From Hymenobacter jeollabukensis (lineage in GTDB: Bacteria; Bacteroidota; Bacteroidia; Cytophagales; Hymenobacteraceae), in contig NZ_VAJM01000018.1 of the NCBI RefSeq assembly GCF_005771675.1, forward strand, positions 1 to 64,000: a stretch of DNA of 64,000 bases, in the 5' to 3' direction. Shown piece by piece: positions 10,407-36,610 of this stretch. Numbering within the stretch: the first letter of the stretch is position 1; each line of letters opens with the position of its first letter. The position numbers were made by a program, and so were the translations under genes. The notes under the pieces are model-generated. The model was not told the origin of the DNA and did not search any database. It saw nothing but the letters and a program-made list of their open reading frames with translations.

Positions 10407-12956
10407 ATGGAAGAGGCTGAAGTAATCGCCGGTTGTGAACACCTCTTAGGGTTGATAAAGGAGCGCGACCGCAAGCTGCTGGTGTTGAAGTATGTCAACT
10501 TCCTGGATTGGTTCGGGATGGGTCTCCGGCGCAACCCCGAGCGGGTGGCCATCATTGACTCCTTTTTACAAGCCAACAACATCACCGTGTGGTGTAAGCG
10601 CGAGTCGCAAAGCTCTATCGCCCATTTTGACCGCCGCACCACCGACCGAATCACCTTCCGCCTCGAAGGGGCAGCCCAAACCATGCAGAACGGCCAGGAC
10701 CAGATTAGCTACGACAACGCCGGGACCATCGAGGTCGCCAAGCAGGACAGCGGCATCGCCCTCTACCCTCACCAGAAGGAGGCCTTGCAGCATCTGAATG
10801 ATAAAATCACCAAGTCCGGGAAGGTGCCCTTCGCGGGCTTGCTCGTCTTGCCAACTGGCGGCGGGAAAACCCTGACGGCGGCCCATTGGCTGTGCACCAA
10901 CCTGCTTAACCAGAACAAGAAAATCCTCTGGATTGCGCACCGGCACGAACTCCTGGACCAGGCCAAGGCGACGTTTCACGAACGGCTGGCTTTTCAAGAC
11001 ATTCTGCGTACCAAGCCCTCCTTCAACTACCGCATCATTTCGGGCATTCACGACAAGCCGGTGCACATTCGGCCCACCGATGACCTCATCATTGCCAGCA
11101 AGGACAGCCTGAACGCCGGCTTCAAGTACCTGCTGGATAAATGGCTGGTTAACCAGGAAGAAGTCTTTCTCATCATCGACGAGGCGCACCACGCAACGGC
11201 CCGGACTTACCGGAAGCTCATCGAGAGCATCCGCGGCAGCGTCAAGCAGTTTCGGATGATTGGCTTGACCGCGACGCCCTTCCGCACCGTCGAGGAAGAG
11301 CAGGGGCTGCTGGCCAAAGTGTTCCCGGACGACATCATCTACAAGATTGACTTACGCAAGCTCATCACCCGCGGCATCCTGTCCGAGCCCGTCTTTGAGA
11401 GTGTCGAAACCGACTTCAACGTCTTGAGCCTGTTCAACAAGCAGGAACTGGACAAGCTGAACTACTTCGACATTGGCAGCATCGGCGAGGGAACGGCCAA
11501 AACCATCGCCCAAAACGACCAACGCAACTGGTGCATTGTCAACCGCTACTGCGAGAACAAGGCCAAATACAAGCAGACCCTCGTTTTTGCACTCAATCAG
11601 GACAACGCCATTGCCCTGAAAAAGCTATTTCAGCTGAAGGACATCCGCTGCGAGTACGTGCTCTCCTCCATTCGGGACCAAGCCACCGGCGTTACCATTT
11701 CCAGCAAGGGCAACAAAGAGATTATCCAGCGCTTCCGGGCCGGTGAACTGGACGTGTTGATAAACGTCAACATCCTAACGGAAGGCACGGATTTGCCCAA
11801 TGTCCAAACCGTTTTCCTGGCCCGGCCGACCATCTCGCCGACGTTGATGACGCAGATGATTGGGCGGGGGCTGCGCGGCGAAAAGGCCGGTGGCACCAAG
11901 GAAGCCTACATCGTCAGCTTCATTGACAACTGGGAGGACAAGGTTGCCTGGGTCAACCCCGAGCGGTTGATAATCGAGGAGAACACGGACTTCAACGACA
12001 CGCAGAAAAACACCCAAAAGCAGCTCGTCCGGCTCATCTCCATCAGCAAGATTGAAGAGTTCGCGGTGCTGGTGAACGACCACATCGACAAAGCCGACAA
12101 AGAGAAGCTGGAAAACATGCCCTTCATCGAGCGTTTGCCGCTGGGCATCTATCACTTCTCCCTGTTGAGTCAGTTCGAGGAGGAAGCCCGGGAGAAGAAC
12201 TGCGAGGTTCTCGTGTACAGCAACCTCAAGCAGCCCTACGCCGATTTGATGCATGCGCTCCCCTCGCTGGTAGCAGGCCTGAAGGCCCCGGTGGCGGATT
12301 ACCTGTCGGAAGCGCAGCTGCAGGACCTAAGCGCGACCATCGAGAGCAAGATTTTCTTCGGCCACGACCTGTACCCGGGGTACAGCCCGCAAGATGTCAA
12401 GGACATCGTGCAGTACTATTACCAAAGCGAATCGCTGCCGAGCTACATCGAGTTGCAGGACCGGGCCAAGTTTGACGTGACCAACGTGGCCAAGGATATT
12501 CTGGCGGGCGACTACAGTCGCTCGCAGGAAGAAGCCTACAAAAGCCAGCTGTGGGACGAGCACGAATCGCAGTGGAAAACCTTCTTTGGCCACGACAAGC
12601 GCTACTTCCTGCATGAAGTTGACTTGGCCATCCGCCGCATCAGCAACCCGGACCTCTACCAGCGCCCGACCATTATCCCCACCGACCGGAAGGAGCTACG
12701 CCGACTAGAGGAACTGCCGATGGGGGAAATCCGGGAGCAGAACCCGGCGTACTGGAAATGGCTCAGTGACCAGGTGTACGAGAAGCATCGCGATGCCGAA
12801 GGGTACTATCAAAGCGCGGAAGGCGATTACCGAAGCAAAAACAAGCTCGACTTTCAGTTGGACCACATCACGGCGATAAGCAATGGGGGGCTGACCACCT
12901 TCGAGAACCTGCAGTTGCTGACCCGAAAGCAAAACGCTGTCAAGGGAGCCCGGTAA
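10407..12956 (+). CDS. SF2 helicase fused to C-terminal HNH nuclease
   Basis: 849 residues. Helicase motifs in order: Walker A P-T-G-G-G-K-T at about 148-154, I-A-H-R-H-E-L-L (Ia), D-E-A-H-H-A at about 258 (Walker B), L-T-A-T-P-F-R-T (motif III), then the second RecA domain with T-E-G-T-D-L-P and motif VI M-I-G-R-G-L-R-G. The last 35 residues form an HNH centre: L-D-x-D-H-I/L-D-H-I-T-A-I-S-N-G-G-L-T-T, then N-L-Q-L-L-T and K-Q-N-A-V-K-G. A helicase with its own HNH nuclease suggests DNA tracking followed by cutting, as in restriction-like defence. Lies 171 bases after the GIY-YIG pair. Confidence 0.85.
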   Translation: MEEAEVIAGCEHLLGLIKERDRKLLVLKYVNFLDWFGMGLRRNPERVAIIDSFLQANNITVWCKRESQSSIAHFDRRTTDRITFRLEGAAQTMQNGQDQISYDNAGTIEVAKQDSGIALYPHQKEALQHLNDKITKSGKVPFAGLLVLPTGGGKTLTAAHWLCTNLLNQNKKILWIAHRHELLDQAKATFHERLAFQDILRTKPSFNYRIISGIHDKPVHIRPTDDLIIASKDSLNAGFKYLLDKWLVNQEEVFLIIDEAHHATARTYRKLIESIRGSVKQFRMIGLTATPFRTVEEEQGLLAKVFPDDIIYKIDLRKLITRGILSEPVFESVETDFNVLSLFNKQELDKLNYFDIGSIGEGTAKTIAQNDQRNWCIVNRYCENKAKYKQTLVFALNQDNAIALKKLFQLKDIRCEYVLSSIRDQATGVTISSKGNKEIIQRFRAGELDVLINVNILTEGTDLPNVQTVFLARPTISPTLMTQMIGRGLRGEKAGGTKEAYIVSFIDNWEDKVAWVNPERLIIEENTDFNDTQKNTQKQLVRLISISKIEEFAVLVNDHIDKADKEKLENMPFIERLPLGIYHFSLLSQFEEEAREKNCEVLVYSNLKQPYADLMHALPSLVAGLKAPVADYLSEAQLQDLSATIESKIFFGHDLYPGYSPQDVKDIVQYYYQSESLPSYIELQDRAKFDVTNVAKDILAGDYSRSQEEAYKSQLWDEHESQWKTFFGHDKRYFLHEVDLAIRRISNPDLYQRPTIIPTDRKELRRLEELPMGEIREQNPAYWKWLSDQVYEKHRDAEGYYQSAEGDYRSKNKLDFQLDHITAISNGGLTTFENLQLLTRKQNAVKGAR

Positions 12957-15615: not shown

Positions 15616-16857
15616 TCAGGCAGTTCTCGATTTTTCGTAGAGCGCTAGCTTCTTTCTTGATTCTTCAGCAGCTCGTTGAAGCTCTTTTTCAAGGCACTCT
15701 GTCTCTTCGTAGTCAATTCTGTAGCCAAACAGCTTCACCTTTATCACTGATTGCATGGACATGCCCTCAGAAAAAACGGTACTGAAGCTCTTATTACAGC
15801 TCTTGCATTTGTATTTGTATCTACCCGTAGGCGTTTGACCAGCTGCGTTGATGGAGTATTTGTCAGCCTGGCAGTAGGGGCACTTGAAACTATGCCGGTC
15901 CACCCGATACTTAACCGCAGAAGAATCGGTGAATAAGTACTCGTTGTTATTCCAGTCCACTAAGTCCAGGTTATAATCCCTTACCAGGCCGATAAACTCG
16001 GCTTTCCGCTGTTGGTAACCGGCTTGGTCGAAATAATGAGCAACGGGAATCTTCAGCAGGTAGTCTGCTCTAGGAAAATAGAGCGCAATCGTATGGATAG
16101 GGTAAATGGGCTCGCAGTCTTTGGTATGCATCAATGACAGCAGATAGTAGCCAATCAACTGATTTAGATACGAGCGCTGCAGGGTCTGCGTCGCGGTAAC
16201 TTTCAGGTCTATCAGTACCCCATCAATGATAATATCAGCGTCCGCCCCTCCAACCAGCATGCCGGCGCGACCAAAGGTCGGGTTCAAAACGCAGTGGTGC
16301 TGTGCCAGAAAGGGCTCCCAATTGACGGCCTGAAAGAGTTTTTCAACCTGGTCGATTTCAGCTGCTTCGTCGTCAAATGCGACTTCCCGAAAAGCAAACT
16401 CGGGCCTTCCGGTGCGGTAGACCACGTCAAGCTTTGCAAGCAACAAACAGGAAAGGATTAGCTCCGGTGTAAGAACACCACTGCGGAGGAAAGCTTGGTA
16501 TTGACCCTTTGCATCATCAAAGTCGCTCTCCAAGCGAGCAACCAAAGGCAGGGTTTTAGCAGCTGCTTCCGGCTTGGTCTTGGCTTTCCTGGCTTGCGAA
16601 CTGGTAACCATGCCCAATGCGTGTTCGGCAATCCATTGGCGCGGCTCCTGCCGGAACTGTGCGTTGATTCGCTCTAGCTGGAATCGAAAGAGGTAGTCAA
16701 AGGCGGTTCCGATACGCGAGTAGCTAAGGTCGCCATTGCGTTCCTTATGTACCGTGATTGGCACCCTCACTACCGGTATATTATTGGGGAAATGATGCCT
16801 GAGCCATGCGGTCAGATTGCTGTGAAGGGGGCTTTGCAGAATTGAGGTTAAACTCAT
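15616..16857 (-). CDS. PD-(D/E)XK-like nuclease with C-terminal zinc ribbon
   Basis: 413 residues. Around residues 205-235 the sequence A-D-A-D-I-I-I-D-G-V-L-I-D-L-K-V-T-A-T followed by Q-L-I-G-Y-Y-L-L gives the metal-binding D, the D-x-K pair and the Q of a PD-(D/E)XK nuclease, as in Cas4/RecB-type domains. Residues about 325-360 form a four-Cys zinc ribbon (C-P-Y-C ... C-K-S-C) followed by a Phe-Ser motif like that of transposase/transcription-factor ribbons. Convergent with the recombinase gene. Probably DNA-cleaving; role unknown. Confidence 0.65.
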   Translation of the reverse strand: MSLTSILQSPLHSNLTAWLRHHFPNNIPVVRVPITVHKERNGDLSYSRIGTAFDYLFRFQLERINAQFRQEPRQWIAEHALGMVTSSQARKAKTKPEAAAKTLPLVARLESDFDDAKGQYQAFLRSGVLTPELILSCLLLAKLDVVYRTGRPEFAFREVAFDDEAAEIDQVEKLFQAVNWEPFLAQHHCVLNPTFGRAGMLVGGADADIIIDGVLIDLKVTATQTLQRSYLNQLIGYYLLSLMHTKDCEPIYPIHTIALYFPRADYLLKIPVAHYFDQAGYQQRKAEFIGLVRDYNLDLVDWNNNEYLFTDSSAVKYRVDRHSFKCPYCQADKYSINAAGQTPTGRYKYKCKSCNKSFSTVFSEGMSMQSVIKVKLFGYRIDYEETECLEKELQRAAEESRKKLALYEKSRTA

Positions 16858-16875
16858 GGGTGCAATCTGAGAATG

Positions 16876-17244
16876 CTAGACACACTCAGCTGCCAACGGG
16901 TAATTAGCCCGTGTCTCCCCGCAGAAGTACAGCCGACTGCCCTCCGTGTCACATTTGAAGTCTGTACCAGCTGCAATGCTCCAAATCTGATTGCAAGAAA
17001 CCCTAATGCGGGATTTAGACTGGGGGTGATGCCTGCTCAGTAGGATATCACAGGTAAGGGTATCGTCATCCATCTCTACGTTCCATGCAACGGCTTGATG
17101 AAGGTGTAGCACCGCTAGATACCAGGTACGCCCCTCTGACTCATAGGAGTGAGCCTTTACTATGTAGTGATTAGCTGGGTCAGCAAGCCCGACAACTAGC
17201 TCCCGTAGGGCAATGCGTGGGTGAGTTGTCGTGGAGGCTGTCAC
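16876..17244 (-). CDS. hypothetical protein
   Basis: 122 residues from a GTG start (17242-17244), 18 bases before the nuclease-like gene on the same strand. Beta-rich soluble protein with three cysteines scattered in the second half. No family recognised. Confidence 0.45.
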   Translation of the reverse strand: MTASTTTHPRIALRELVVGLADPANHYIVKAHSYESEGRTWYLAVLHLHQAVAWNVEMDDDTLTCDILLSRHHPQSKSRIRVSCNQIWSIAAGTDFKCDTEGSRLYFCGETRANYPLAAECV

Positions 17245-17290
17245 AAGCGTTTTTTTAGTGGGTATGTCAGCAAATTAGAAGCAGCGGTCC

Positions 17291-17641
17291 TTACGCGGCA
17301 TCCAGAATAAAGTCTGCGGGTATTTGGAGCTTTTGATACAAGCGCCGGGCCAAGTCGAGATTGATTTGCCGCTTTCCCTTCAGCACCTCGTTGAGGCGTG
17401 AAGGAGTAATTTCCAGCAGGGCTGCCAACTCCTTTTGCTTCATACGCCGGCGAAACATCTCTACTTCAATGCGCCCAGCTATCGTTTGGGGAGGCCCGGG
17501 GTGGAAATCTTGTGCCTTCTCATAAGCGTGAATGGCATCCCGCAGGGGCAATAGCGCAGCAGTGTTGCCCGAATCAGTATCAAGCAACTCATCAAACTGG
17601 CGTAAAGCCGCCAAGTACTCAGCTTCGGTGTGCAACGTCAT
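17291..17641 (-). CDS. higA: HigA-type antitoxin (XRE)
   Basis: 116 residues. N-terminal helical segment (Y-L-A-A-L-R-Q-F-D-E-L-L-D) typical of the larger HigA antitoxins that precede the HTH with an acidic Glu-rich helix, then an XRE helix-turn-helix at about residues 68-100 (M-K-Q-K-E-L-A-A-L-L-E-I-T-P-S-R-L-N-E-V-L). Pairs with the toxin gene 11 bases upstream. The XRE call is firm and the pairing is from context. Confidence 0.82.
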   Translation of the reverse strand: MTLHTEAEYLAALRQFDELLDTDSGNTAALLPLRDAIHAYEKAQDFHPGPPQTIAGRIEVEMFRRRMKQKELAALLEITPSRLNEVLKGKRQINLDLARRLYQKLQIPADFILDAA

Positions 17642-17652
17642 GACTAAGCAGG

Positions 17653-17946
17653 TTATACGGTTGAGGCATTCACTTTATCGTAGGCGGCGTGTGTTCCAAT
17701 AAATCGAATATATACTGTACGAATGTTGAAATGTATCCTGGCAATAAGGCGGTAGCGGTTGCCCCGTATGTTAAACACGTAGCGGTCGTTTCCTACATAG
17801 TCTGCGGTCGGATAACTAGCCTTTACATCTGACCAAGTCGCCCAATCAGCGCACTCGACCTGAGCATACCATACCCGCAGCGCTTCTCTTGCGTCAGCAT
17901 GACGTTCGCCAAATTCACGCAGGGTCCGCTCGGTTAAAACAACCAT
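17653..17946 (-). CDS. higB: HigB-type toxin
   Basis: 97 residues with the HigB_toxin pattern: R-T-L-R-E-F near the start, W-x-x-W-S-D-V-K-A-S-Y-P-T-A-D-Y-V-G-N-D-R-Y-V-F-N-I-R-G-N-R-Y-R-L-I and the closing I-R-F-I-G-T-H-A-A-Y-D-K. It is the classic mRNA interferase subfamily that follows toxin-antitoxin order. Second higBA-type pair of the window, different in sequence from the pair at 3.7-4.3 kb. Confidence 0.9.
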   Translation of the reverse strand: MVVLTERTLREFGERHADAREALRVWYAQVECADWATWSDVKASYPTADYVGNDRYVFNIRGNRYRLIARIHFNIRTVYIRFIGTHAAYDKVNASTV

Positions 17947-18132
17947 AACGCAAATCTAGTCGCTTTGATTACAATTTGCGCAATTTTATTCTGATTTTGG
18001 TAATATAGGTGCTACATTTGCTCAACCCTGAATCGTGGGGGTAATGACTAGCGACAGCATTAAATTCTGGTTTGAAACCGTAAAGCTTTGCTGTAGCTTC
18101 GTAGATTTTTTGAGTCCCCCGAACGCCTACTT

Positions 18133-21100
18133 GTGTACGAATTAACTCCAAAACTGCCCACCAATGCCGCTATACGCCGGTTGTGGGCCGTTCTTGCTAA
18201 AGCTCCCCTGCCAACAGTGTTGGCGGATTATCTGCGTGGGTGGCTGGGTATGTTGAATGACGAGGCCCTGCCTCACGCTGATTACTTACGCTTACGGGTT
18301 TTTGGCCGGGTGCTCATGGACCTTGCCAGTCAGGGATGGCACTTCTCCTGCACCAGCGAAGATGCAACCATTCTACGCGCATTGTCCCCGGATACAACGG
18401 TACGCCCTGGGCAAAGCGCCACTTCGCCCGCTGAAGTAAAGCAAGTGCTACGGGCGTCGCTGGTCGCGAACCGCGATGAGCAACTGCGTGACCCCGATAA
18501 TCAGCGCTTCATACGACGTATGGAGATGCCCCGCCGACATGCAGGGCGCATGTTGAACGTGCGTAACCTGCTGGTAAACCCAAGGACTCTAGCTGCTGAA
18601 TTGCAGACTTGCCTGGCAGCCCCTGAAGCAAATCGCGCCGAGTTGATTGGCTCATTGGTACAGCCCTACTTGCAGTTGGCCACGGAAGCAACCGATGAGC
18701 ACACCGGACTTCGTCTGCTGGACATCTGGCGTTACTGCCGCTACACCTGGAGTCTTCCTTTTCAGACCCAGCCGGGCCGGCGCATGTTCTACTTGGTACG
18801 CGACGCAGCTCGGCCGCTGCACCCCATTATTGGTATTGGCGCCCTGGGCTCCGCTGTTGTTCAGATAACGGTGCGGGACGAATACGTTGGCTGGTCAGTC
18901 AAATCCTTGCAGAAGTGCGCTGACCCAACGAGTCGACTACGTGCTCTGGACCTTGAACTTGCCCGCGCAGTAGATGAGATATTCGCGGAGGATTTTGTTG
19001 AGGAAGGTATACTAGAGCTAGCAGAGCTAATTCAACCCACCGCGGCGACCTTCGACAATCTGGACCGCGCTGCCCGGGACTTGCCTCTAGCAAGTCGTAC
19101 GGCACACCGGGGACTAAAAATCGACCTCGAAGTAGAGGCGCGTTCAGACCTTTATCGTCGTAAGCGGGCAGAAACGCTAAGCGGGCTGCTTTCTGCCCGC
19201 CAAGTGTTTCAGCAGAGTGACCACCTGCCTGCTCCCGAACGGTTAGCCCACCTGCTAGCCTCGCCAGAGGGCTTGAAGGCATTGCGCGTTGCCATAAAAA
19301 GCATCAAAAAGCGTCATGTAGCGGCTTCTATTATGGAAATCACTACGTGCGGGGCTATACCTCCCTACGGCGAGTTACTGGGTGGAAAACTGGTTGCAAT
19401 GCTGATGGCAAGCCCTCAAGTCGTAGCCGAGTATAAAGCACGGTATACCGATAGCTCGAGCGTGATTGCCAGCCGTATGCGGGGCGAAATTGTAAACCGT
19501 GACGCTAACCTTGTCCTGCTGGGAACCAGCAGTCTTTACCACGTTGGAAGCAGTCAGTACAACCGCATCAAGTTTCCCACTGCGAAAGGGGAAATCGAGT
19601 ACAAGCTTATTGGGAAAACGGAAGGGTTTGGAAGTGTCCACTTATCGCGTCAGAGCTATGATGCAATCCAGGACATGCTGCGCGAAGACCCGGCGCAGAA
19701 CAGCCAGAGTTATACATTCGCTGCCGGAGTAAACTATAAGTTGCGCTCCATTGCCTCGGCGTTTAACATGCTGGGCCTTCAGAAACTGCAAAAACACGCT
19801 ACCCCTCGCCTGGTCTATCTCACTCCCACGGCCAAGAACTGGCAGCGCTACCTATTAGGAGAAGACCAGCAGCCTGATTGGCTTTATTCGGACCTTGGCA
19901 ATTATGTCCAAGAAACGGCAGCTATTGTTGAGCATTGGAAACAGCGCTGGTTTATCAAGCGGGCTCAAAACCCTGAAATCGTTGCCCGTCTGCTAACGGC
20001 GGAAAAGATTGCCTCACTAACTCAAATCACCGACCACGAAACCGAGGCTGCCCGAAAACAGCAGGGGTCTTTTTTTTTTCTAGGAGATAATATGCCACCC
20101 AAGATAGACTGGTCGGTATTCGCCTTGTTCAACGGCGGACGCACAAGCTTTGCTGAGAAATTGAAGCCAGCGGAGCTAGAAATTTTTCATATCGAGTCCA
20201 AAAAGCTGGAAGCCGGAATCATTGGCTTGCTTAACTCGAACCGACGAATCTACCTGACTGGCAATCCAGGGGACGGAAAGACGCACCTTATCCGTCGATT
20301 GTCTGAGGACAACGACAAATGGCCGGGCAATACGTTCGTCCACTGGGATGCGAGCGCAGAGAATCAGGAAAAGCTCGTGACGGAGCTAAAACAGGCCATT
20401 AGCGACAAGCGGCCGGTGCTGGTGGCAGTAAACGAAGGGCCTTTGCGACAAATTCTGCTTGACCTACCCGAGTCCGAAGCTAGCATGTTACGTGAGCAAT
20501 TGGCAACCCCATTTGTCTACGACGCGGGCACCGCCGATGAGCCGGAAATTCCGGAAGTGCTCTTGGTCCACCTTGGCTCCCGGCAGGTATTGACCCATGA
20601 GTTGATTGAAAAAGCGCTACAAATTGCCCTCCGGAAAGTAGATTATGATAGCGCTCCTCAACGGGTAAGAGATAATGTGCAGGCTCTGGGCCATCACCTG
20701 GTTCAACAACGCCTCGGTGACTTGCTGAAACTGGTTAGCCAGGGCGGTACCCACGTCACCATGCATCAACTGCTGGGGTTGCTGTCGCGCATGATTACCG
20801 GGGGGTCACCCTTACCTGCGCGGGCACAAAACGCGCATCCTTACTACGAGACAATTTTCGAGAAGATAGAGGGGAGTGCACTATCGGCAACGCTTCGGGA
20901 ACTGGACCCTGCGCGTTCGCCCCACGCGCATTTGGATACCCACAAACTTTGGGATGCTCCCGTCTCAGCTGGGCAATGGCTGACCAGCCCGGCCCATCCT
21001 GCTCCAGGTTCAAGTTCTGACAAAGAAGAAGCTGTGCGCTGGTTCCGGTCACTGAAAAGGCAATACTATTTTGAAGCCTCGCAAGGCAAGGACTTGCTAA

Positions 21101-21699
21101 AATCCATCCCCCCGGACCGGGCAAGTTTCGCCGAACTAGTTTCTGGTGGCACAGGCCAGGCACGACGTAAGTTGTTAACAGCCCTTGCACGATTCGCTAA
21201 CCAGAAAATCGAGAGCGGCACGAAAAATCACGATGGAAGTTCTAACGCAACTGCGCCAGAACTATACCTATGGACATCGCTACGCTACGATGCGGTTGGT
21301 CCAGCTACTGCCCTGATAGCGGCGGCAAGTTTGCGGGAAACAGACGTGGCCGTGCAGCTTCCGTCCTTATCCCCCGCTCTCGCCAGTCTGCTGGACTACG
21401 AGCCTGACCATGTCCGGTTAACCCTAAGTCGTAAAGCAAATGCGCCCGCTTTATTGCTTGATTTAGAACTCTGGACTGCGCTAGGACAGGTTGCTCGTGG
21501 ATTGCCCTTGCAATTTCGGTCGGAAGAAGCCGGCCGGCGAGTGGGACGTTTTCTATCGGAGCTAGCCGCTTTTAGCACGGCTGATGAAACGGGGAAAATA
21601 CGAATCCATGATGTTGAAGCAGGCCACACATACGCAGTTGGCTTAGAAGCACAGCCGCTTGATAAAAACGGGCACAGCAAGATAAAATACGTGCTCTAA
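18133..21699 (+). CDS. DruA (DUF4338)-like domain fused to a P-loop ATPase
   Basis: 1188 residues as written, from GTG 18133. Residues about 205-500 carry the DUF4338/DruA marks: T-W-S-L-P-F then P-G-R-R-M-F-Y-L-V-R-D-A-A-R-P and H-P-I-I-G-I-G-A-L-G-S with R-D-E-Y-V-G-W-S; later E-L-L-G-G-K-L-V-A-M-L and S-S-L-Y-x-V-G-S-S-Q-Y-N-R. After a run of ten T (20070-20079) the frame passes into an ATPase with Walker A G-N-P-G-D-G-K-T-H (residues 710-718) in a DptF-like sequence. An AGGAG plus ATG (20092) at the junction suggests the ATPase is also made alone (535 residues). Head of a four-gene operon. DruA belongs to the Druantia anti-phage system, but the partners here differ. Confidence 0.7.
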   Translation: MYELTPKLPTNAAIRRLWAVLAKAPLPTVLADYLRGWLGMLNDEALPHADYLRLRVFGRVLMDLASQGWHFSCTSEDATILRALSPDTTVRPGQSATSPAEVKQVLRASLVANRDEQLRDPDNQRFIRRMEMPRRHAGRMLNVRNLLVNPRTLAAELQTCLAAPEANRAELIGSLVQPYLQLATEATDEHTGLRLLDIWRYCRYTWSLPFQTQPGRRMFYLVRDAARPLHPIIGIGALGSAVVQITVRDEYVGWSVKSLQKCADPTSRLRALDLELARAVDEIFAEDFVEEGILELAELIQPTAATFDNLDRAARDLPLASRTAHRGLKIDLEVEARSDLYRRKRAETLSGLLSARQVFQQSDHLPAPERLAHLLASPEGLKALRVAIKSIKKRHVAASIMEITTCGAIPPYGELLGGKLVAMLMASPQVVAEYKARYTDSSSVIASRMRGEIVNRDANLVLLGTSSLYHVGSSQYNRIKFPTAKGEIEYKLIGKTEGFGSVHLSRQSYDAIQDMLREDPAQNSQSYTFAAGVNYKLRSIASAFNMLGLQKLQKHATPRLVYLTPTAKNWQRYLLGEDQQPDWLYSDLGNYVQETAAIVEHWKQRWFIKRAQNPEIVARLLTAEKIASLTQITDHETEAARKQQGSFFFLGDNMPPKIDWSVFALFNGGRTSFAEKLKPAELEIFHIESKKLEAGIIGLLNSNRRIYLTGNPGDGKTHLIRRLSEDNDKWPGNTFVHWDASAENQEKLVTELKQAISDKRPVLVAVNEGPLRQILLDLPESEASMLREQLATPFVYDAGTADEPEIPEVLLVHLGSRQVLTHELIEKALQIALRKVDYDSAPQRVRDNVQALGHHLVQQRLGDLLKLVSQGGTHVTMHQLLGLLSRMITGGSPLPARAQNAHPYYETIFEKIEGSALSATLRELDPARSPHAHLDTHKLWDAPVSAGQWLTSPAHPAPGSSSDKEEAVRWFRSLKRQYYFEASQGKDLLKSIPPDRASFAELVSGGTGQARRKLLTALARFANQKIESGTKNHDGSSNATAPELYLWTSLRYDAVGPATALIAAASLRETDVAVQLPSLSPALASLLDYEPDHVRLTLSRKANAPALLLDLELWTALGQVARGLPLQFRSEEAGRRVGRFLSELAAFSTADETGKIRIHDVEAGHTYAVGLEAQPLDKNGHSKIKYVL
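20070..20094 (+). promoter_or_regulatory. T10 slippage tract with internal ribosome site and ATG
   Basis: Ten T in a row (20070-20079), directly followed by C-T-A-G-G-A-G and an ATG five bases further. With ten T the DruA and ATPase parts are one frame; with nine T the reading meets TAG at once, with eleven it meets TAA after three codons. Runs of nine or more T/A promote RNA-polymerase slippage, so DruA alone, fusion, and ATPase alone could all be produced. A sequencing error in the homopolymer is the other reading. Confidence 0.55.
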
Positions 21700-21740
21700 G
21701 ACCACCCCACTTTCGTTTCGACCAATCCTTAGTTGATACT

Positions 21741-23186
21741 ATGCCTGAGCTTTTACTTGCTGAAGTAGCCGAACTTGTTGCCAACGCTACCTGGGGCTTC
21801 GTTCCTGCCCGTGACATTAAGCCTGTCCATTTAGCGAACGGCATGTTTCGGGCGCTTGCTGGTCCAATAGAACCGGATTTGGGTTTGTTGAAGAAGGTGG
21901 TGGCCACTATGCGGGGCAAGACGCAGAAATCTTCCACAGAAATTATCGAAATCGCTGATTTCAGAGCCGCAGCTGAGTTGCCGCTGAGTACCGCAGCAGC
22001 GGAGGGAGCAGTAACACAGTTACGCAAGGCGCTCGATGTGGTGCTCAATCAAGATGGGGCATTTTATGAAGGTTCAACCTCTACGCCTACCCTCTCCCAC
22101 TGGCATCATCTCACGAAAGACCCCTCAGACCAACGAGCGGGGCATCTACTTGCACACGTTTTACTAGGCGCCCCCGAACGGGCGGCAGCCTTGGCAATCC
22201 GGGGAGCCTTATCCAAGAATAATGACGCTGTTTACCGGCTGACCGCTCCCCTAATAGGAAACCAAGAGGAAGAATTGCCTGCGTTTCCTGCACCAGATAG
22301 TGATATCCAACAGAAAGCGCAAGAATCGTGTGTTCTAAAAAGCCTTCAGGAAAGCTTTACTACCCTAGCAGAATACAGTGAGTATCTGGATAAAACCGCC
22401 TTGTTGCAACGAACGGTAACCCTGGCAGGGTTCGGATTGCTGCTCTACCTGTTCAACGGAAATTCAGATACCTGCCAGCCATTATTGCTTTGTGCTTCTG
22501 ACCATCCAATGGCAGTCAGAGAAGCCAGCCGCCACACCTTGGCCTTGGCCCGCAGGCGGCTGCGAACGGTATTTGGGGAATCACTGCGTAAAGAGTTGAT
22601 TAAGCGGGGTGATGATAAACTCAAAGAACAAGAATACCGTGACTGGGCATCTACATGGCTCCCGTCCGAATCTTTTACTCCTAACCAAATTCAGCGTTAC
22701 GCCTTAGAATTTGAGCAGGAACTGCTAGCTGGCGAAACGCCCTTTGAAGCAGCCGTCCGCGCTCTAACAGGCCCGGCAATGGCCATAATTGGCAGAACTA
22801 AATCGGGACAGGACAGCGTCACACCAGAGGGCTGTAGCAAACACCTCGGTCGGCGCATCGGCTTGCAGTGGCCCCGCAAGCATGGACGGGGCGAGCGCTA
22901 TTTGCTCCCTGTTGGGGCTATCTATGATGCTTTGGTGACTAGCCTGCTGCATCATAAGGACGTGATACAGGCGGAGGTATTTTGGGAGTTGGCATACAAG
23001 CGGTTTGGGCTGATATGCGGCGCGTTGCCAGAAGTCGATGGAGAACGCCTTGCCCGCTTAGGGATTCGCAATGTCACATCAGCACAGCTGGCTGCCAATG
23101 CCCGCGGCATCATTGAAGATTTGACCCGTTTGGGTTACGCTCGAACTTACGCCGATGACGTGACGCTGATTAGCGCCATGTGGTAG
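21741..23186 (+). CDS. unknown defence-operon protein (DptG-sized)
   Basis: 481 residues, soluble and mainly helical. No recognised catalytic motif. The last 120 residues (starting [21 protein letters not shown], ending A-D-D-V-T-L-I) look like a winged-helix-type domain by helix-strand pattern. Starts 41 bases after the DruA-ATPase stop and ends 49 bases before the FtsK-like gene. Position between a DptF-like ATPase and a large motor protein, and its length, match DptG of the phosphorothioate-dependent restriction system; sequence similarity to DptG could not be tested. Confidence 0.5.
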
Positions 23187-23235
23187 CCAGCAGATTGGCT
23201 TTTCCCTTATCCTTCCCGCTTATATAGAGCCTGTG

Positions 23236-26200
23236 ATGCCCTCGAAAGATATACTCTTCGCTACCCTATTTGAACTGCTAGAGCAAGAGTTCGCTATAGC
23301 ACCAACTGGGCTACTGCTCCCTAATTTGCCGTTACCGACTGCGGATTGGTTACCTGAGTTACTGCATACGCTGGCAGATGATAGCCGGTACTATGTAACG
23401 GTTGTAGGAGCCGACCAAACAAAGACCTTGGCCCTTCAGCCATTGGTAAATCCTCACTTTGGGCTAACGGCAACTCATGCAGTAGAAATACGCAACGACT
23501 TGGAGTTGCCCGCCGATGCGCGGCGGCTGGTTATTGTGCTTAAGACTGAGCCCCGCATGAATTCATTGCGGGATTATAGAATTCTAAGCGTTGAGAAGAT
23601 AGTCCAGGCGATAGCCCGTAAAGGCAGTACTAAAGCGCCGAACTCGCCCCAACGCGCCCTTTGGGATGTATTGGCTACCACGAAGTTACCAACCGAACTC
23701 GGGGCCTTGATTCGGTTTTATGACGAGGTCTACAGAGAAGGAGGTGCTGAGCCACGGGAGGCTTTACACATTCTTGAATTGCTCCCAGACCCTGCCTTAT
23801 TCAACGACCACCGCACTACTGTTGGGGCAATAGCACCGCGTCTGGAGCTAAATGCAACCTTGACGGGGCGGTTGTTGCTGCGCGACTCGGAGGACGTTGA
23901 CAAGGCATATGAGACATACCGCAAAGCGGTAGACGCAGCCAATCCTATAACGGACTTACTACGAGAGAGCTACGGGCGATTTCGCAAATTGGACCCGGCT
24001 GCTGAATTACCATCTCAATTAGAGGGGTTTTCGTTTGAAGCGGTGAGAATGCTGTTCGGAGAGAGCAGCCTCCCTCCTGTGAAACCATCTCCCAACCCTC
24101 AACCGGAGCCTGAACCCGAGCCGGAGCCAGAGCCGGAGCCAGAGCCAGAGCCAGAGCCTGAACCCGGGCCAGGACCAGGACCGGGACCAGGGCCAAATCC
24201 TGAGCCAGAACCAGAACCCGAGCCAGAGCCAGAACCGATTCGGCCTAATCCCCCTGGAGGCGGCCCCTCTGGTGGCAAGCCAAGTCGTGAGTCCTTCCGA
24301 GAAGGGTTACTTGATGAGGCTGTGTTAGCAATCGCAGCTGACCCCCGTTTTGCCGAAACCTGGGGTCAGGAGGTAACCAAGCTTTTTTCTGCTTTGCGGA
24401 AGGAGCCTGAAGGGAGCAACATGCTGATTGGTATTCGGACAGAGTGTGACCATCGCACGGAACCTGGGGCCCTTCTTTTGACCGAAGAACTACTAGACAC
24501 CCACCGTTTTGGCGGAATCATTACGGTAGGGCAGGCCAATTCCTTAGAGGAAGCATTGGCTTCTTTATCCGAAGGCCTGCCCGCTGCAAACCCCATTTTT
24601 GATGCAACGTGGCTAAGCCAGTTGCAAGAATACCTAACAACGGCTGAAGAACTTCTTCCCCCCGGTTTTGAAGGCATCGCGCGGCTTAAGTACTACATGG
24701 ACTGCCGGGCACGGCTCGTTCCCGTGGCCGATATGCTTACGGCTGCCCCCCTCACTACTTTGCTGGCTCAGCCTGACATCTTACAAGCTGCCCGCGATAC
24801 AGTAGCCGCTTACGAGGGGTTAATGGAGCATATTAGCAGCCACTTTGCTCAACTCCAACAAGAAGATGGTGCTCAGCTCTTAGGGGGACTATTGCTGCGC
24901 TTAGACTTGGTGGAAGTGCGTGATGGCATGGGTGGGCGAGCAGGGTTATTAGCACCTTTTCATCCGCTGATTCTGTGGAAGAATATCGAGTTGGCCGATG
25001 AGGTGCTAGCTGGGCATGCAGCCGACTTGCGTTTGTTGATTGGGCGGCTTAGCCTTTTCTCCGAGCCTTTAAGGGCCCTGATGCTCCCCGTTGACGAGTC
25101 CTACACCGACACGGCATTAGCGTATGCTGACCGCTTGGGTTCCTGGGCGGTATATCGTCCTGCGGGGCTGGTAAACGTCACGGTAAGCATTCGCTTGCTG
25201 GAACGGGCTGCTGAGAAAATTGCGATACTATACCCCCCGGTACGTCAACACCTCCGCCTCTTCCTGCATCATCCAGAAAGCCTTGAGCGGGTAACCGAGG
25301 TTCTCCGGCATCTTTTTGCCCCTAAAAAAGGGCATACGCCATTCGAGCATGTTCAATTAATCATCAGCCATCATCCAGACACACCCATCAAACTCGATGG
25401 TTTGAACAACTTCATCAGTGAGGGTTTGGTGACTCCCGAACTGAAATCAGCTGTTGACGCCGACGAAATCGTTCCGTGGCTGGTTGACAATCCGGTGCAC
25501 ATACTGGTGCTGCCAGGGCAGCGCTATTTGCAGCCAACCCGGATTGGACGTCAAGCAAGCAACATCCACCCGCTTAGTCTGCCGCGACTGCTTCAGTTTA
25601 ATCAGTTTAAGAAGATTATCAGCCTGCAGCCTCGTAGTCAGCAAGGGTCAAGCAGCGGCGCTAGCCAGCCCTTTGGCCCCTATCATGCCCTCGCCGCTGC
25701 GCTGGGAGGACAACCCCAGCAGGAGCTATCAGGCACACTCGTTCAGCAGGAGAATAATGGGAGCCAGACCATCCTGATGCCGCATGCTGTTTTCATGTTG
25801 TTGGCGGGAGCAACCGGCGTCGAGGGGGCACAAGTGCTGGCCCGTGAAGGAGGCATTGACGGGGACGTAGTGGTAACGCATTATCCTAAACGCTTCGTCA
25901 AAGGCGTCGAGTACATGCTGCGGGAACTGAACTACCAGCCGGATGCAGCTGGAGTACTGCGCCTGCTGAAGCGTTTGGAAACGGTGGGCGAAACCGGCCT
26001 TTTCAAAACCATCAGCGATACGGGTGTAGGCGGATTTTCCCCTCCTGAGCTGAAAGGGCAATTTGGGTTGGCAGTCGCTTTAGGTTGGTATCTGGCCCTC
26101 GCGGGCAATGACCCACGTCATTTGACCGTAAGCCTGGACTCAGAATTAGCGAAGCGTTGGCTTGAAAAGCGTGATTCTGACCGTCGCAACGATTTGCTAG

Positions 26201-28059
26201 GCATGCGCCGCTTGGAAAACGGACGGCTGAGCATCGACTTAATCGAGGTCAAGTCCTATAAGGTTGGGGCTAATATTGAAGGCGACGGACATCCGGGCGA
26301 ACAGCTACGCGCCGTAGCGCGAGCCCTGTTCCCTGTCTTGGAAGGCAAAGGCGGTGACCTGCTAACCGATTGCCGGCGAGAACTACTGCGTGAGCAGCTA
26401 TTCAGGGAGGGTCAACTTACGTTTCCCAAGGAAGGTGTTACCACCAAAGAATGGGGTGGTTGGATTCAACTCCTGAATGATACCCTGGATGGCGAATTAT
26501 CCCTTGAGGAAGGGAAAATTGAAGTTAACCTTATGCTCATCGAGGTTTGCTTTGAAGAAAACATTGAACGGAGCGAAACCATTGTGCAAGCTGATGCTGG
26601 CGCACAACATCCAGCTGACCGCTTGCCTGTACATCGGGTTCGTTTGGGCGAATCGGATGTAAAACTGTTGCTTGGCAGCGATTGGGCCGCTCCGGTCACA
26701 TTGCCAACTGTTACGGTCCCGGCACCCGTAAAAGCTCAACCAAAAGGTGCGCAGGCAGCTGCAACGCCAGCCCCAAAGCCAACCGTTATAGTTGCAGACC
26801 CCATAGTTGCACCTAAAAAACCAGATGGTCCTGAAAAGCAGGGTGAGGATGATTCGGAGGTGACCGGCACCACCCCGCTACCAGATGCCCCTATAGCACC
26901 TGCCAGTGGGGGTAGTTCTGCTCCGATTCCCCCGGAAGCAGTACTAGGTGAAGAAGAACCGGCTGAGCCCACCCAGTCCGTCAAATCCACGGCTGACTTG
27001 GAGGCGCTGGCCGCGGCGTTATACCGCGCTTTGCAAAACTTTGGGCAGACCCCGAAGAAGCCCATTGACCCGCAACTTGCCGATGTAGGTCCTACCGTCA
27101 TCCGTTTCAAGATAGAAACCCGCGTAGGGCAGCAACTCAACAAGATTCAAGCAAGGGCATTGGACTTGCAACGGGAGATGGAGTTGGAAAAGCCCCCCGT
27201 CATTTACAATCTGCGAGGGTACATCGCCGTAGATATCCCGCGCCCTGACCCACAGGCCGTTTTATTGAAGGACGTTCTGGCAAGCAGCGCCAAAAAGAAA
27301 CAGGAGTTAGCTCCCATTTCTTTCCCTGCGGGTGTGGCTCCCGACGGGGACGTGCCATGGCTGAGCATCCCGCTTCTGCCGCATATGCTAGTTGGGGGTA
27401 CTTCGCGCTCGGGCAAAACAATGTTCCTCTATAGCATCATTGTTTCTCTAACGAAGTTGAATACCCCGGACGAGTTGAAAATCGTCTTGATTGACCCCAA
27501 GCGGACTGATTTCAACTATTTCAGTTCATTGCCTCACCTCTACAACGGCGAGATTCTGACTGATAAGCAGCAGGCGATGGACGTGTTGCAGGACCTGCTT
27601 AATATCGAGTTAGAGCGCCGTACCGATGTGCTGGTGGAGCACGGGTGCCGGGATATTCAAGACCTGCACCGAAGCCAACCACAGATTGTCATGCCTTATG
27701 TGATAGTGGTTATTGACGAGTTTGCTGACCTGTCCGGCATCATGGACAAGAAGCAGCGGGAAGCCTTTGATATGCTCCTGGGACGTGTTGCCCAACGAGC
27801 CCGGAGCGTTGGCATTCACCTCATCATTGCCACGCAACGGCCAGATGCGAAGGTGATTTTCGGAAATCTTAAGGCTAACCTGCTCTGCAGAGTGGCTTTT
27901 CAGCTTACTTCTGGTATCGATAGCCGCATTATTTTGGATGAGAATGGGGCAGAAGACCTGATAGGCTACGGCGACATGCTACTCAAAATAGAGGGACGGA
28001 TTCAGCGTTTGCAAGGGTTTTTCATCAGCACAGATGAGTTGCGAAAACTTAAATCCTAG
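23236..28059 (+). CDS. large FtsK/HerA-like ATPase with Pro-Glu repeats (DptH-sized)
   Basis: 1607 residues from ATG 23236. Layout: helical N-terminal domain (1-285); low-complexity Pro-Glu then Pro-Gly repeats (about 288-340); a large middle domain (350-1150); a second Pro/Ala-rich linker (about 1155-1245); an FtsK-like motor (1290-1607). The motor has [11 protein letters not shown] (Walker A, about 1386-1396), [22 protein letters not shown] (Walker B, about 1488-1499) and I-I-A-T-Q-R-P. FtsK motors pump double-stranded DNA. No membrane segments, so it is cytoplasmic. No nuclease motif was identified in the middle domain by eye. Confidence 0.75.
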
Positions 28060-28091
28060 CTTTTCCGCTCTTGGCTAATACGGCATTGAAC

Positions 28092-28880
28092 ATGACGGCA
28101 AGAAAATTAGGGCTGATTTACGCTGCCATCCATGCGGAAAGGCTGGGTTTTATCCGGGAGATATGCGAGGACTGGTCAAAACCAGAACTGCCCTTTGCCC
28201 TTGATGAGTCGATGAAGCACTTGGAAAGCGGCATGCTCTATACTTTCAAGCAAGGGGGCATACAAACTCACCGTATTGCAACGGAATTGGAGGCTCCAAC
28301 CAAGGATTTCTATGACCAGTTGGACCGGACTATTTTCAGTAGACAAGGGGCCAGCATTAAAGCAAACCGGCACAATTTAGACACGGTAGACTTCATCCTA
28401 AAAAACGACCTTGACAGCACGTACTACCATCAGGCATACGCTATCAGAAAGATAAACGGCTTTCTGGATAATGAATTTGAAACCTTTGACTTTGAGAAGG
28501 CGGTCGAGGCATACCGGGTTGAATTGAAGTGCTCGGGCTTTACCAGAGTTGGCAAAGAAGACAAGGCCTGGATTGCCATTGAATCAACCAACTACTTCCT
28601 TAACCGTACCTGGGACCCCTATCTAACAAAACTGCTCCCGATAATCCACAACGTCATTTGTGAAGACTCCTACTACGCAAGCTGGCAATCCATACTGGAT
28701 GAGTTGAAGACTGGTCTCGGTCTCGAAGGGATAAAAAAGCTGGAATTGGAAGCCGCACAGCTGGAATTCAACATCAAAGACAACATATTCAGTAAGTATA
28801 GCCGAACTGCCCATAAAGAGGGCTTAGTATCTGAGATAGAGCTAATTCGGAATCGAATTTTATCAGGATTGGGTCAATAG
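28092..28880 (+). CDS. unknown small protein of the DruA/FtsK operon
   Basis: 262 residues from ATG 28092; TTG 28071, eleven bases after the FtsK-like stop, would add seven residues and couple it more tightly. Helical, charged, with no signal peptide. Sequence around residues 90-140 (D-S-T-Y-Y-H-Q-A-Y-A-I-R-K-I-N-G-F-L-D-N) has no family match I recognise. Its closeness to the motor gene makes it the fourth member of the operon. Confidence 0.5.
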   Translation: MTARKLGLIYAAIHAERLGFIREICEDWSKPELPFALDESMKHLESGMLYTFKQGGIQTHRIATELEAPTKDFYDQLDRTIFSRQGASIKANRHNLDTVDFILKNDLDSTYYHQAYAIRKINGFLDNEFETFDFEKAVEAYRVELKCSGFTRVGKEDKAWIAIESTNYFLNRTWDPYLTKLLPIIHNVICEDSYYASWQSILDELKTGLGLEGIKKLELEAAQLEFNIKDNIFSKYSRTAHKEGLVSEIELIRNRILSGLGQ

Positions 28881-29491: not shown

Positions 29492-30838
29492 ATGTTCGGC
29501 CTAGTCGATTGCAACAATTTCTACGTGAGCTGCGAGCGGGTTTTTCAGCCGCGCTACGAGGGTCGGCCGGTGGTTGTGCTCAGCAACAACGATGGCAACA
29601 TCATCAGCCGCTCCGCTGAGGCAAAGGCCCTGGGCCTGCAAATGGGCGACCCTTATTTTCAGGTCAAGCCCTTGCTGCAACAACACAACGTGACCGTATT
29701 TTCGAGCAATTACGCCTTGTATGGCGATATGAGCCGGCGTGTCATGTGGTATCTCGGCCAATCGGCTCCCGGCGTTGAAATCTACTCCATTGACGAGGCA
29801 TTTCTGGACCTGGCCGGAATGGAAAAGCACTTGGGGAGCCTGGATGCTTTCGCCCGTAAGATTCGGGCCGGGGTTAAGGCGCGAACGGGCATTCCGACCT
29901 GCGTTGGGGTTGCACCGACCAAAACCTTAGCCAAACTGGCGAACCGCATCGCTAAGAAAAACCCGGACCTGGGCGGGGTGCTCTACCTCGACAACGCGGA
30001 CCGGCGGGCCTGGGCGCTGGGGCAAGTGGCCGTGGGCGACGTGTGGGGCATCGGGCGGCAGTACGCGGCCAAACTCACCGCGGCCGGCATCGACACGGCG
30101 GCGGACCTGGCCCGCGTATCCGATACCTGGGCGCGCAAACACCTGGGCGGCGTGGTCGGGGCGCGGCTGGTGCAGGAACTGCAAGGCCGGCCCTGCGCGG
30201 GGTTGCATCCATCGGAAGATGGCACCCTGGCCCGGCAAAGCATTAGTTGCTCCCGAACCTTTGGCCGGCCCCTGGCGGCATTTGCCGATGTGCAGGCCGC
30301 GGTGGCTTCGTTTCTGTCGCGGGCGGCGGAAAAACTGCGCCGGCAAAACGACACGGCCCATGTGCTGACGGTGTTTCTGAGCAAAAACCGCTTTGCTACC
30401 AACGTGCTCCCTCCTTTCTCGCGCTCGGCTACCCTAACCCTGCCTTCGGGGCCTACGGCCGATACGACGGTGCTCCTGAGCTATGCCCGCGCCATGCTCA
30501 GCCGGCTATGGGAGCCCGGCACGCTCTACCACAAGGCGGGGGTGGTGCTCGACGGATTGGAACCACCCGGTACCGGCCAGCAGCTTTCCTTGTTTGACTC
30601 CCCGGCACCGATACCGAACAAAAGGGAAGAAAAGTCGCTGCAGGCGGAGCGGCCCGGCCTGATGGCTAGCCTTGATGCTCTGAACCAACGCTTCGGGCGG
30701 GGCACCGTGCGCGTGGCCTCGGCGGTGCTGCCGCCTGCTACAGGGGGGCGGCCCGTTCGGGCACCCTGGGAGGGGAAGGCACAGTGGTGTTCACCGGCCT
30801 ACACTACCAGGCTGGAAGATTTACTTATCGTGCGCTAG
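29492..30838 (+). CDS. umuC: UmuC, Y-family DNA polymerase V subunit
   Basis: 448 residues, usual length. Catalytic acidic residues in G-L-V-D-C-N-N-F-Y (start) and Y-S-I-D-E-A-F-L-D (about 100-108); G-V-A-P-T-K-T-L-A-K-L-A-N; helix-hairpin-helix/thumb around residues 185-205; little-finger domain with S-C-S-R-T-F-G. The C-terminus has the short R-F-G-x-G-T-V-R tail of UmuC proteins. Copies translesion DNA together with UmuD'. Frequent on plasmids. Confidence 0.95.
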   Translation: MFGLVDCNNFYVSCERVFQPRYEGRPVVVLSNNDGNIISRSAEAKALGLQMGDPYFQVKPLLQQHNVTVFSSNYALYGDMSRRVMWYLGQSAPGVEIYSIDEAFLDLAGMEKHLGSLDAFARKIRAGVKARTGIPTCVGVAPTKTLAKLANRIAKKNPDLGGVLYLDNADRRAWALGQVAVGDVWGIGRQYAAKLTAAGIDTAADLARVSDTWARKHLGGVVGARLVQELQGRPCAGLHPSEDGTLARQSISCSRTFGRPLAAFADVQAAVASFLSRAAEKLRRQNDTAHVLTVFLSKNRFATNVLPPFSRSATLTLPSGPTADTTVLLSYARAMLSRLWEPGTLYHKAGVVLDGLEPPGTGQQLSLFDSPAPIPNKREEKSLQAERPGLMASLDALNQRFGRGTVRVASAVLPPATGGRPVRAPWEGKAQWCSPAYTTRLEDLLIVR

Positions 30839-35549: not shown

Positions 35550-35686
35550 GGTGTGGCTTTTCAACAAAGGAGCAGAGCCACGAGCAAACCGCAGAAAATG
35601 TTCTTTTATTTCATCTGCTGCACTACTCCATAAGATGAGAGTAACGAGTTACCGAGTGGGTGAGCAGCAGACCACCAAGCTCTGTT

Positions 35687-35911
35687 TTAGTCCGGTTGAG
35701 TGTCGGTAATGCTTACACTCATTTCGTACCGGTCCGCCTCAGCCGGAGCGCCGCTGGGTGGGGTGATAACGATTTCGTAGCGGTCGGTGGCATATTCGGC
35801 ATAAATCCGGGTGCGGGCCGCTTCTACGGCTTCTTCGGAGCTGCCAGCGCCGATTACGGTTACCGTTGTGGCGTGGGAGCCAGAACCGGGACTTTCAAAG
35901 AATACTTCCAT
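35687..35911 (-). CDS. hypothetical small protein
   Basis: 74 residues from ATG 35909-35911; a longer frame to 35965 would overlap the start of the divergent gene. Compact alpha-beta pattern, with S-S-E-E-A-V-E-A-A-R-T-R-I-Y-A-E-Y as its helix. Only 24 bases separate its start from the divergent UDG-like gene, so both use one control region. No family recognised. Confidence 0.5.
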   Translation of the reverse strand: MEVFFESPGSGSHATTVTVIGAGSSEEAVEAARTRIYAEYATDRYEIVITPPSGAPAEADRYEMSVSITDTQPD

Positions 35912-35935
35912 CGTAGGAGAGAAAAGGAGGAAAAA

Positions 35936-36610
35936 ATGGCAATGACTTGTGGCAAGTGTGCCCATATGGGCTTAGGCTTTTATTCTGATACTATTGGCCC
36001 AGTTGAATACTTAGAGGGCAAAACGAGCGCGGACATATGGATTGTAGGGCTTAATCCAAAACATGATATTGGCCACGTTGAGCAACGAACGCCAGCCGAG
36101 TTCGCGGCTTTCGACCCAGATTGCCATCCGTACTTCTGGGATTTCAGAAAAGTCTCCCCGGCTCTGTATGCCAATTGGAAAGGTCCCAACAGTCGCATCG
36201 CTCATACGGACTTGGTGAAATGCTTCTCTCCTAGCTTTCCGGCCGTCGTGTTAGTCAATGGCTCTCCAACAGAAGTTGACAGTAAGCAAGTTGTGACTAA
36301 TTGCAGCACGCATCTACTGGAACAGATTCGCCGGTTCAGGCCCAAAGTGATTATTTGTAATGGTGCGCCGGTATGTTACACCGTCATGGGGTTCTTTCCT
36401 CCTAATAACGAAGCGCAGACTAATCGTGCTACCTCCTACAAATACGAACTTGACCTGGGGAATGGCTCGAAGCATTCCCTTTGGCTTGTGTTCTCGGGAT
36501 TCATTGGAAGAATAGACAATTGGAACAGAAGAAGGCTAGGGGTTGAGATTGAGGACATACTGGCGAGTGAAGGAATCGAATTGCATTCGGGCACAAGCAG
36601 CTACTCATAA
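35936..36610 (+). CDS. uracil-DNA-glycosylase-fold protein
   Basis: 224 residues from ATG 35936, preceded by AAGGAGG. Motifs in the order of UDG superfamily members: I-W-I-V-G-L-N-P-K (motif with the active loop, about residues 32-40), F-x-x-x-T-D-L-V-K-C, K-V-I-I-C-N-G-A-P-V, and a weak final motif F-S-G-F-I-G-R-I-D where typical members have H-P-S. A C-G-K-C pair opens the chain (residues 5-8), as in the FeS-containing family 4/5 enzymes. Base-excision or phage-base sensing are possible; activity is uncertain because the motifs diverge. Confidence 0.55.
   Translation: MAMTCGKCAHMGLGFYSDTIGPVEYLEGKTSADIWIVGLNPKHDIGHVEQRTPAEFAAFDPDCHPYFWDFRKVSPALYANWKGPNSRIAHTDLVKCFSPSFPAVVLVNGSPTEVDSKQVVTNCSTHLLEQIRRFRPKVIICNGAPVCYTVMGFFPPNNEAQTNRATSYKYELDLGNGSKHSLWLVFSGFIGRIDNWNRRRLGVEIEDILASEGIELHSGTSSYS

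Follow-up and report, generated by a model that had tools for sequence, protein, structure and literature searches.

The closest described relatives of the locus considered here are the DndFGH and SspFGH restriction modules. In the part of the SspFGH report covered here (Wang et al, 2021; PMC8092258), SspFGH restricts phage, all three genes being needed, and works with single-strand phosphorothioation by SspBCD. Nicking activity is described for DndFGH in the covered passages of PMC12345140 and PMC11662687. The passages covered of Rakesh, Aravind and Krishnan (2024; PMC10853773) present DndFGH as commonly decoupled from phosphorothioation and forming a standalone system, give an asparagine in the Walker B motif as a hallmark of DndF, and place a GNAT domain 'annotated as DUF4338', named once in the main text, among the N-terminal fusions of DndF. 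PADLOC labels its DruA models 'DUF4338 domain', and because of this description we take DUF4338 to be the DruA family, to which DruA of Druantia type I (DruABCDE) belongs. Here we describe an operon on a 64,000-nucleotide stretch of Hymenobacter jeollabukensis DNA (positions 1 to 64,000 of contig NZ_VAJM01000018.1, assembly GCF_005771675.1; hereafter the window). Judged by profile matches, sequence motifs and predicted structure, positions 18133-28059 encode DruA fused to DndF, then DndG and then DndH, that is, a DptFGH/SspFGH restriction module.

As far as PMC10853773 was covered, the operon resembles its GNAT/DUF4338-DndF systems in the domain order of gene 1, in having DndG and DndH, and in standing alone without modification genes; the same text describes a class of DndH with an FtsK-alpha domain, as in gene 3 here. 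It shares with SspFGH homologous F, G and H proteins, according to PADLOC, and an FtsK-like C-terminus of H, but SspFGH works with SspBCD and has no DruA in the passages covered (PMC8092258). With Druantia type I the likeness is DruA, here a long form fused to DndF; the four proteins encoded at 18133-28880 gave no match to DruB, DruC, DruD or DruE. The DruA-DndF fusion itself is already in print and the operon belongs to the known DndFGH family. An earlier reading of the DNA letters alone (the sequence-only reading) had proposed a new kind of operon, and this does not hold, as both the DUF4338-DndF fusion and standalone DndFGH appear in the published passages. Its suggestion of a Druantia/Dpt hybrid survives in part: a DruE-type helicase does lie beside DruA-DndFGH in 8 of 80 related loci and in two plasmid loci (L007 and L010), whereas in the window DruA is the sole Druantia part. 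The window operon is DndFGH with DruA and not a merger of two complete systems.

Relative to the published passages covered, what is new is the constancy of DruA, its split form, the DruE neighbour and, at 34 of the 80 loci, a gene of the SfsA family. Neither Druantia, SfsA nor HigB is mentioned in the main text of PMC10853773, and a constant DruA in one branch, DruA as a gene of its own, and neighbours of the DruE, SfsA or HigBA kind were not found in its covered part. A literature search that left supplements and most subscription papers outside gave, judged from the listed entries and the covered parts of PMC12904381 and PMC12458937, no further paper joining DruA or Druantia to DndFGH or SspFGH. 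We consider it probable that this is a standalone, restriction-type DndFGH defence operon of a DruA branch, on a plasmid-like contig, in which DruA would be a constant front-end subunit that helps to decide when or what to attack.

Composition of the operon

The F, G and H genes lie on one strand in a single order that is repeated in related loci, and it is from this layout that the operon is read. Their assignment is made because the matches to PADLOC models, an asparagine of DndF type at the Walker B position, the structural match of the gene 2 model to DndG, and the PD-(D/E)xK site and FtsK motor of gene 3 point to the same module. The sequence-only reading had seen four same-strand open reading frames (ORFs) with short gaps and a DruA domain in the first, and had guessed DptF, DptG and DptH from protein lengths. 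The coordinates were confirmed, with gaps of 41, 46 and 11 bases between genes 1-2, 2-3 and 3-4, and the profile comparison that it had asked for bore out the rest, giving matches to DruA1, SspF, SspG and SspH together with a DndG fold and DndF and DndH motifs. Coordinates are collected in Table 1.

The N-terminal part of gene 1 matches Pfam PF14236 (E 1.3e-35) and PADLOC DruA1 (residues 40-624, E 3.4e-123). Its predicted structure has a predicted local distance difference test score (pLDDT) of 87.8, and acetyltransferases make up most of the 50 entries listed for it by VIA-align; the tRNA-acetylating toxins TacT, KacT and AtaT are among its structural neighbours. The fold of the model is that of the GNAT superfamily. 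No significant match to it came from Foldseek alone, and the DruA profile gave seven matches to PDB chains at chance level (E 0.27-0.47). No match to gene 1 was found in phage records. The remainder of gene 1 matches PADLOC SspF (residues 705-891, E 2e-10). Across 82 aligned DndF rows the Walker A residues T709, G710, G713, D714, G715 and K716 are fully conserved (100%), N711 is present in 99% and Pro712 in 96%, while both Asn767 at the Walker B position and the acidic Asp739 on strand 2 occur in all 82.

Gene 2 matches PADLOC SspG (E 1.7e-5), and its 481 residues lie in the size range of DndG, about 450-500. Among PDB entries its predicted structure (pLDDT 82.2) is matched best by 7exx, 'The structure of DndG' (probability 1.00, E 1.2e-3, template modelling scores 0.40/0.43, root-mean-square deviation 10.3), the runner-up having a probability of 0.09. 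Gene 3 matches PADLOC SspH (residues 1276-1606, E 1.1e-70), Pfam FtsK_SpoIIIE (E 1e-31) and FtsK_alpha (E 2.2e-6), and its motor residues G1394, K1395, D1495, E1496 and Q1535 are each present in at least 90% of 58 DndH rows. DndH has a core of eight domains, among them an inactive SNF2 domain, beta-sandwiches, TRDs and an inactive methylase. The DndH proteins of three distant loci that lack DruA (L109, L110 and L112), which themselves match PADLOC DndH chiefly in the C-terminal part, were aligned by profile to the rest of this protein. The middle region aligns with probabilities of 96.6, 84.6 and 91.0, respectively (E 6.5e-10 for L109), and the N-terminal region less clearly (43.8, 80.5 and 47.0). 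Against the divergent second DndH proteins of L096 and L102 the N-terminal part found no support (0.9 and 0.4), and the middle part gave 35.1 and 94.4. In a Hymenobacter canadensis plasmid (L005) an IS3-type insertion lies between DndG and most of DndH, and DndH is in several pieces.

Compared with the corresponding locus of H. daecheongensis DSM 21074 (L034), the ratio of nonsynonymous to synonymous substitution rates (dN/dS) is 0.028 for DruA, 0.030 for DndF, 0.032 for DndG and 0.050 for DndH, with zero stops. All four are kept by purifying selection.

Table 1. Features of the operon and its upstream block in the window
Feature	Position	Strand	Basis
Gene 1 (DruA-DndF)	18133-21699	+	ORF of 1188 residues
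N-terminal DruA domain of gene 1 (predicted GNAT fold, long form)	18133-20080	+	Pfam, PADLOC, predicted structure
C-terminal DndF/SspF/DptF core of gene 1	20081-21699 (boundary approximate)	+	PADLOC SspF, motifs
Walker A of DndF, residues 709-716 (including GNPGDGK)	20257-20280	+	conservation in 82 rows
Walker B asparagine of DndF, Asn767	20431-20433	+	82/82 rows
Gene 2 (DndG/SspG/DptG)	21741-23186	+	ORF of 481 residues; PADLOC SspG
Gene 3 (DndH/SspH/DptH)	23233-28059	+	ORF of 1608 residues; PADLOC SspH
Pro/Glu/Gly-rich linker in DndH, about residues 285-335	24085-24237	+	low complexity in translation; Pfam PARP match below cut-off
Putative PD-(D/E)xK-type nuclease site of DndH, D987...E1005-x-K1007	26191-26253	+	all three residues conserved at 90% or more in 58 DndH rows
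FtsK/HerA motor of DndH, residues 1368-1537, FtsK-alpha domain ahead	27334-27843	+	Pfam; motif conservation
Gene 4 (orphan ORF)	28071-28880	+	269 residues; adjoins the conserved unit, outside it
HigB-type toxin gene, upstream block	17653-17946	-	Pfam HigB_toxin, E 3.7e-32
HigA-type antitoxin (helix-turn-helix), upstream block	17291-17641	-	Pfam HTH_3, E 4.1e-7; dN/dS 0.004 against L034
122-residue protein, upstream block	16876-17244	-	homologues only in L034 and L011 among 88 sources scanned

DruA in related loci

An alignment of DndF cores, with no DruA in it, was searched against the genome_contigs collection (one genome per species, 84,980 species). From 83 relatives, 80 loci were kept; L069 and L099 share a plasmid, and L077 and L090 appear nearly identical to L041 and L042. 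Within the DruA branch, which is what these loci sample, DruA is fused to DndF or lies directly upstream of it in 73 of the 80 (32 fused, 41 separate), so that the co-conservation with F, G and H that the sequence-only reading had left to a neighbourhood search is found. The 73 loci come from 13 named phyla, archaea included, with one locus unassigned and many metagenome bins. As for the others, in L063 DruA sits at the far end of the operon and is encoded on the opposite strand, in L076 just 126 bases lie upstream of DndF, L111 is a contig-end fragment in which no DndF ORF was found, and L109, L110, L112 and L113 carry distant DndFs without DruA. DndG or DndH went undetected in nine of the 73: seven loci end at that point (L058, L059, L066, L081, L088, L106 and L108) and two (L094 and L105) have a large ORF in the place of DndH that the DndH profile does not recognise. 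In three loci (L096, L102 and L106) the strand opposite DruA-DndF-DndG carries a further DndF-DndG set next to it, divergent and lacking DruA, which extends to DndH in L096 and L102.

As a control, seven other Bacteroidota genomes with an SspF-type DndF, out of 395 searched, had no DruA in flanks of about 1.3-1.5 kb; one of these (G277) has PF14236 matches on other contigs. PF14236 occurs in nine of the 395 genomes, and DndF was found beside it only in H. jeollabukensis and in G173, where the two are short pieces lying apart, the loci being 2-4 kb and the test a weak one.

The same H. jeollabukensis genome holds a second operon, on contig C8 (L011:5754-15607), in which DruA, DndF, DndG and DndH are four unfused genes. 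On a DndF tree of 86 rows the fused or separate state of DruA changes four times, and its presence twice if L063 and L076 are left out or four times with both. The tree was made by a 'quick' method with warnings on long branches and composition, and omits L066, L069, L077, L081, L090, L099, L108, L111 and rows covering less than 70% of the profile. Repeated fusion and fission of neighbouring genes is a usual sign of joint function, and the four switches would therefore fit DruA and DndF being proteins that work together. Taken from these sequences, the pattern suggests that DruA is a constant part of a whole branch of DndFGH systems and not an occasional add-on.

DruA is not exclusive to DndFGH. 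Searching with the L007 protein by phmmer, a DruE-type helicase was found in eight of the 80 loci (L035, L083, L084, L085, L087, L093, L098 and L105) and in the plasmid loci L007, L010 and, without DndFGH, L009; PADLOC confirms DruE1 in all four scanned (L007, L035, L093 and L009). In haloarchaea (L007:2854-11568, L010, L083, L085 and L087) a divergent DruE helicase, a DruD-like protein (PADLOC E 1.4e-6, scanned in L007 only) and a third protein lie beside DruA-DndFGH. A Neobacillus locus (L035:1174-18476) reads DruE1, a 93-residue protein, DruA, DndF, DndG, DndH and SfsA, all on one strand. Among seven viral-contig loci anchored on DruA, three carry DruA-DndF fusions (L129, L130 and L135) and four (L131-L134) DruA with an MzaB-like ATPase and no DndF match. 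The plasmid loci L008, L009, L126, L127 and L128 have DruA without a DndF match. Altogether DruA stands beside an MzaB-like ATPase in L008, L009, L063, L094, L105, L126 and L131-L134, seven of these ten being without a DndF match, and this makes another arrangement built on DruA.

The role of DruA

We infer that this operon would act like the published DndFGH and SspFGH. DndG and the DNA-reading parts of DndH would engage the DNA of an invader. The FtsK-type motor of DndH would travel along this DNA and the putative PD-(D/E)xK nuclease of the same protein would nick or degrade it, with nucleotide binding by DndF gating the attack. DruA, fused to DndF here and a separate neighbour elsewhere, may be the GNAT-fold front-end subunit that helps to decide when or what to attack. 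Every reading of what DruA does is likewise something that we infer.

Several points weigh against this picture. The PADLOC matches cover part of DndF and the final 331 residues of DndH, Pfam and NCBIfam scans of the window proteins returned no DndF, DndG or DndH name, and the fold match of gene 2 to DndG has, besides its root-mean-square deviation, an E value slightly above 0.001. In sequence-profile searches of the PDB no chain matched DndF or gene 2, though the PDB holds a DndG structure. Because the scan patterns were built on DndFs linked to DruA, the 80 loci represent the DruA branch and not DndF as a whole. Judged by eye against the GNAT pattern, the coenzyme A-binding motif of DruA, at about residues 412-420, seems degenerate. 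No activity is reported for any DruA-DndFGH system in the literature covered, and the covered part of PMC10853773 views N-terminal DndF domains as occasional backup effectors.

That last view leads to a possible, if less favoured, account in which DndFGH alone restricts and DruA is a toxin-like GNAT co-effector that would modify host molecules if restriction fails. The toxins among the structural neighbours of the DruA model are consistent with it, as is the kinase-type region found in the same N-terminal slot in DruA-less L112. An optional part should often be lost or swapped, however, yet DruA is kept, fused or separate, throughout most of the sampled loci, and it is under strong purifying selection against L034. 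The front-end role is preferred over the effector role because DruA is found with different DNA-directed partners, the MzaB-like ATPase and DruE, which would suit such a role.

It is improbable, to our mind, that DruA instead writes an acyl-type mark on host DNA in the manner of Mom, replacing phosphorothioation as the self mark of DndFGH. The GNAT fold of the model would suit such an activity, since Mom of phage Mu, itself a GNAT, modifies adenine and jumbo phages encode nucleases with fused Mom domains (PMC7824862, passages covered), and DruA is common to several DNA-directed systems. The H. jeollabukensis assembly, which is 99.95% complete, gave no match to DndC at E <= 1 and matches to DndD far below the cut-off only; SspBCD was not searched. 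The Dnd phosphorothioation genes that a phosphorothioation-coupled Dnd restriction-modification system requires are thus absent from what was found. An SspE search, with a guessed accession, gave no match in this genome or in any control and is uninformative. DndC is also rare beside DruA-less DndF, and a lack of phosphorothioation genes is therefore not peculiar to DruA: DndC was above the cut-off in one of 46 branch genomes and one of 11 DruA-less DndF genomes, and the DruA-less genome of L109 has a match below the cut-off. Of the 75 loci that have a branch DndF, this comparison drew on 46, namely L063 and 45 in which DruA is adjacent. The absence of these genes as proof that DruA replaces them was rejected, DruA-less DndF genomes being mostly without DndC too. 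That a Mom-like DruA might give the cross-domain DndFGH branch, Druantia I and MzaB-linked systems a common, unseen mark of self and non-self in place of phosphorothioation would be a long shot.

Gene 4 and the surrounding genes

The sequence-only reading had counted gene 4 as a member of the operon. A four-gene unit would fit its strand and 11-base gap but is very improbable. DNA collinearity with L034 (84.7% identity) extends over window positions 16883-28058, to the last base but one of the DndH stop codon. Nothing at that locus matches gene 4, and the G+C content of gene 4 is lower (0.458 against 0.539). Among the ORFs of the 88 sources in the set it matches only itself and the second operon is without it. 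Gene 4 as part of the unit was rejected on the lack of a relative in L034, the second operon or any locus of the set. Searches elsewhere found one match, itself, in eight genomes of the genus, itself and one weak match (E 0.0071) in 395 genomes of the phylum, none in plasmids or PHROGs, and three pattern matches but no relative in viral contigs; no match was found in the L034 genome, where an empty answer carries no weight alone. Pfam, PADLOC and NCBIfam scans gave nothing convincing.

One gene family occurs in 34 of the 80 loci, just after DndH in 31 (on the opposite strand in L091, partial in L052) and upstream in L075, L092 and L103. Two tested members of the post-DndH family belong to the SfsA family (PF03749, PF17746), examples being L035:17766-18476 and L041:17825-18505, and the SfsA-family gene is probably a fifth component, mostly in Firmicutes. 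A profile of this fifth gene scored 0.3 bits against gene 4 by hmmsearch, giving no link.

That the locus is a genuine Druantia system running on a different motor is scarcely credible, in spite of its DruA and the DruE-type helicase of some relatives, since the remaining core genes match DndFGH, the proteins lack other Druantia matches, and no DruE was found in the assembly at E 1e-5 where 10 of 14 control genomes were positive.

The HigB-HigA-122-residue block (window 16873-18004) recurs upstream of the L034 operon and of the second operon; the copy at the second operon has 74.8% DNA identity, and its HigB match is shorter and weak. Linked as it is to three Hymenobacter-type DruA-DndFGH operons, the block may guard or regulate them. 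A umuC-like ORF lies near both operons of the genome, with a DNA match between L011:2349-3340 and window 29597-30594.

Elsewhere in the window, a Rep3-type replication initiator is encoded at 42755-43690, and contig C10, with a length of 92.8 kb, is possibly a plasmid. Positions 4972-6681 encode a GmrSD-type restriction enzyme, 10407-12956 a helicase with PbeA-like PADLOC matches and a sub-threshold HNH match, and 35660-36610 a uracil-DNA-glycosylase-superfamily match adjoining a helix-turn-helix regulator. A 413-residue protein (15616-16857) matches PADLOC PDC-S61 (E 7e-9) and RTasPDDEXK (E 1e-5), with a weak zinc-ribbon match, and none of the other sources in the set was found to contain it.

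With DruA constant in one DndFGH branch and common to Druantia and MzaB-linked loci, the way in which standalone DndFGH tells self from invader and the role of DruA become testable together. The pair of fused and unfused operons in one genome is a convenient natural test bed for this.

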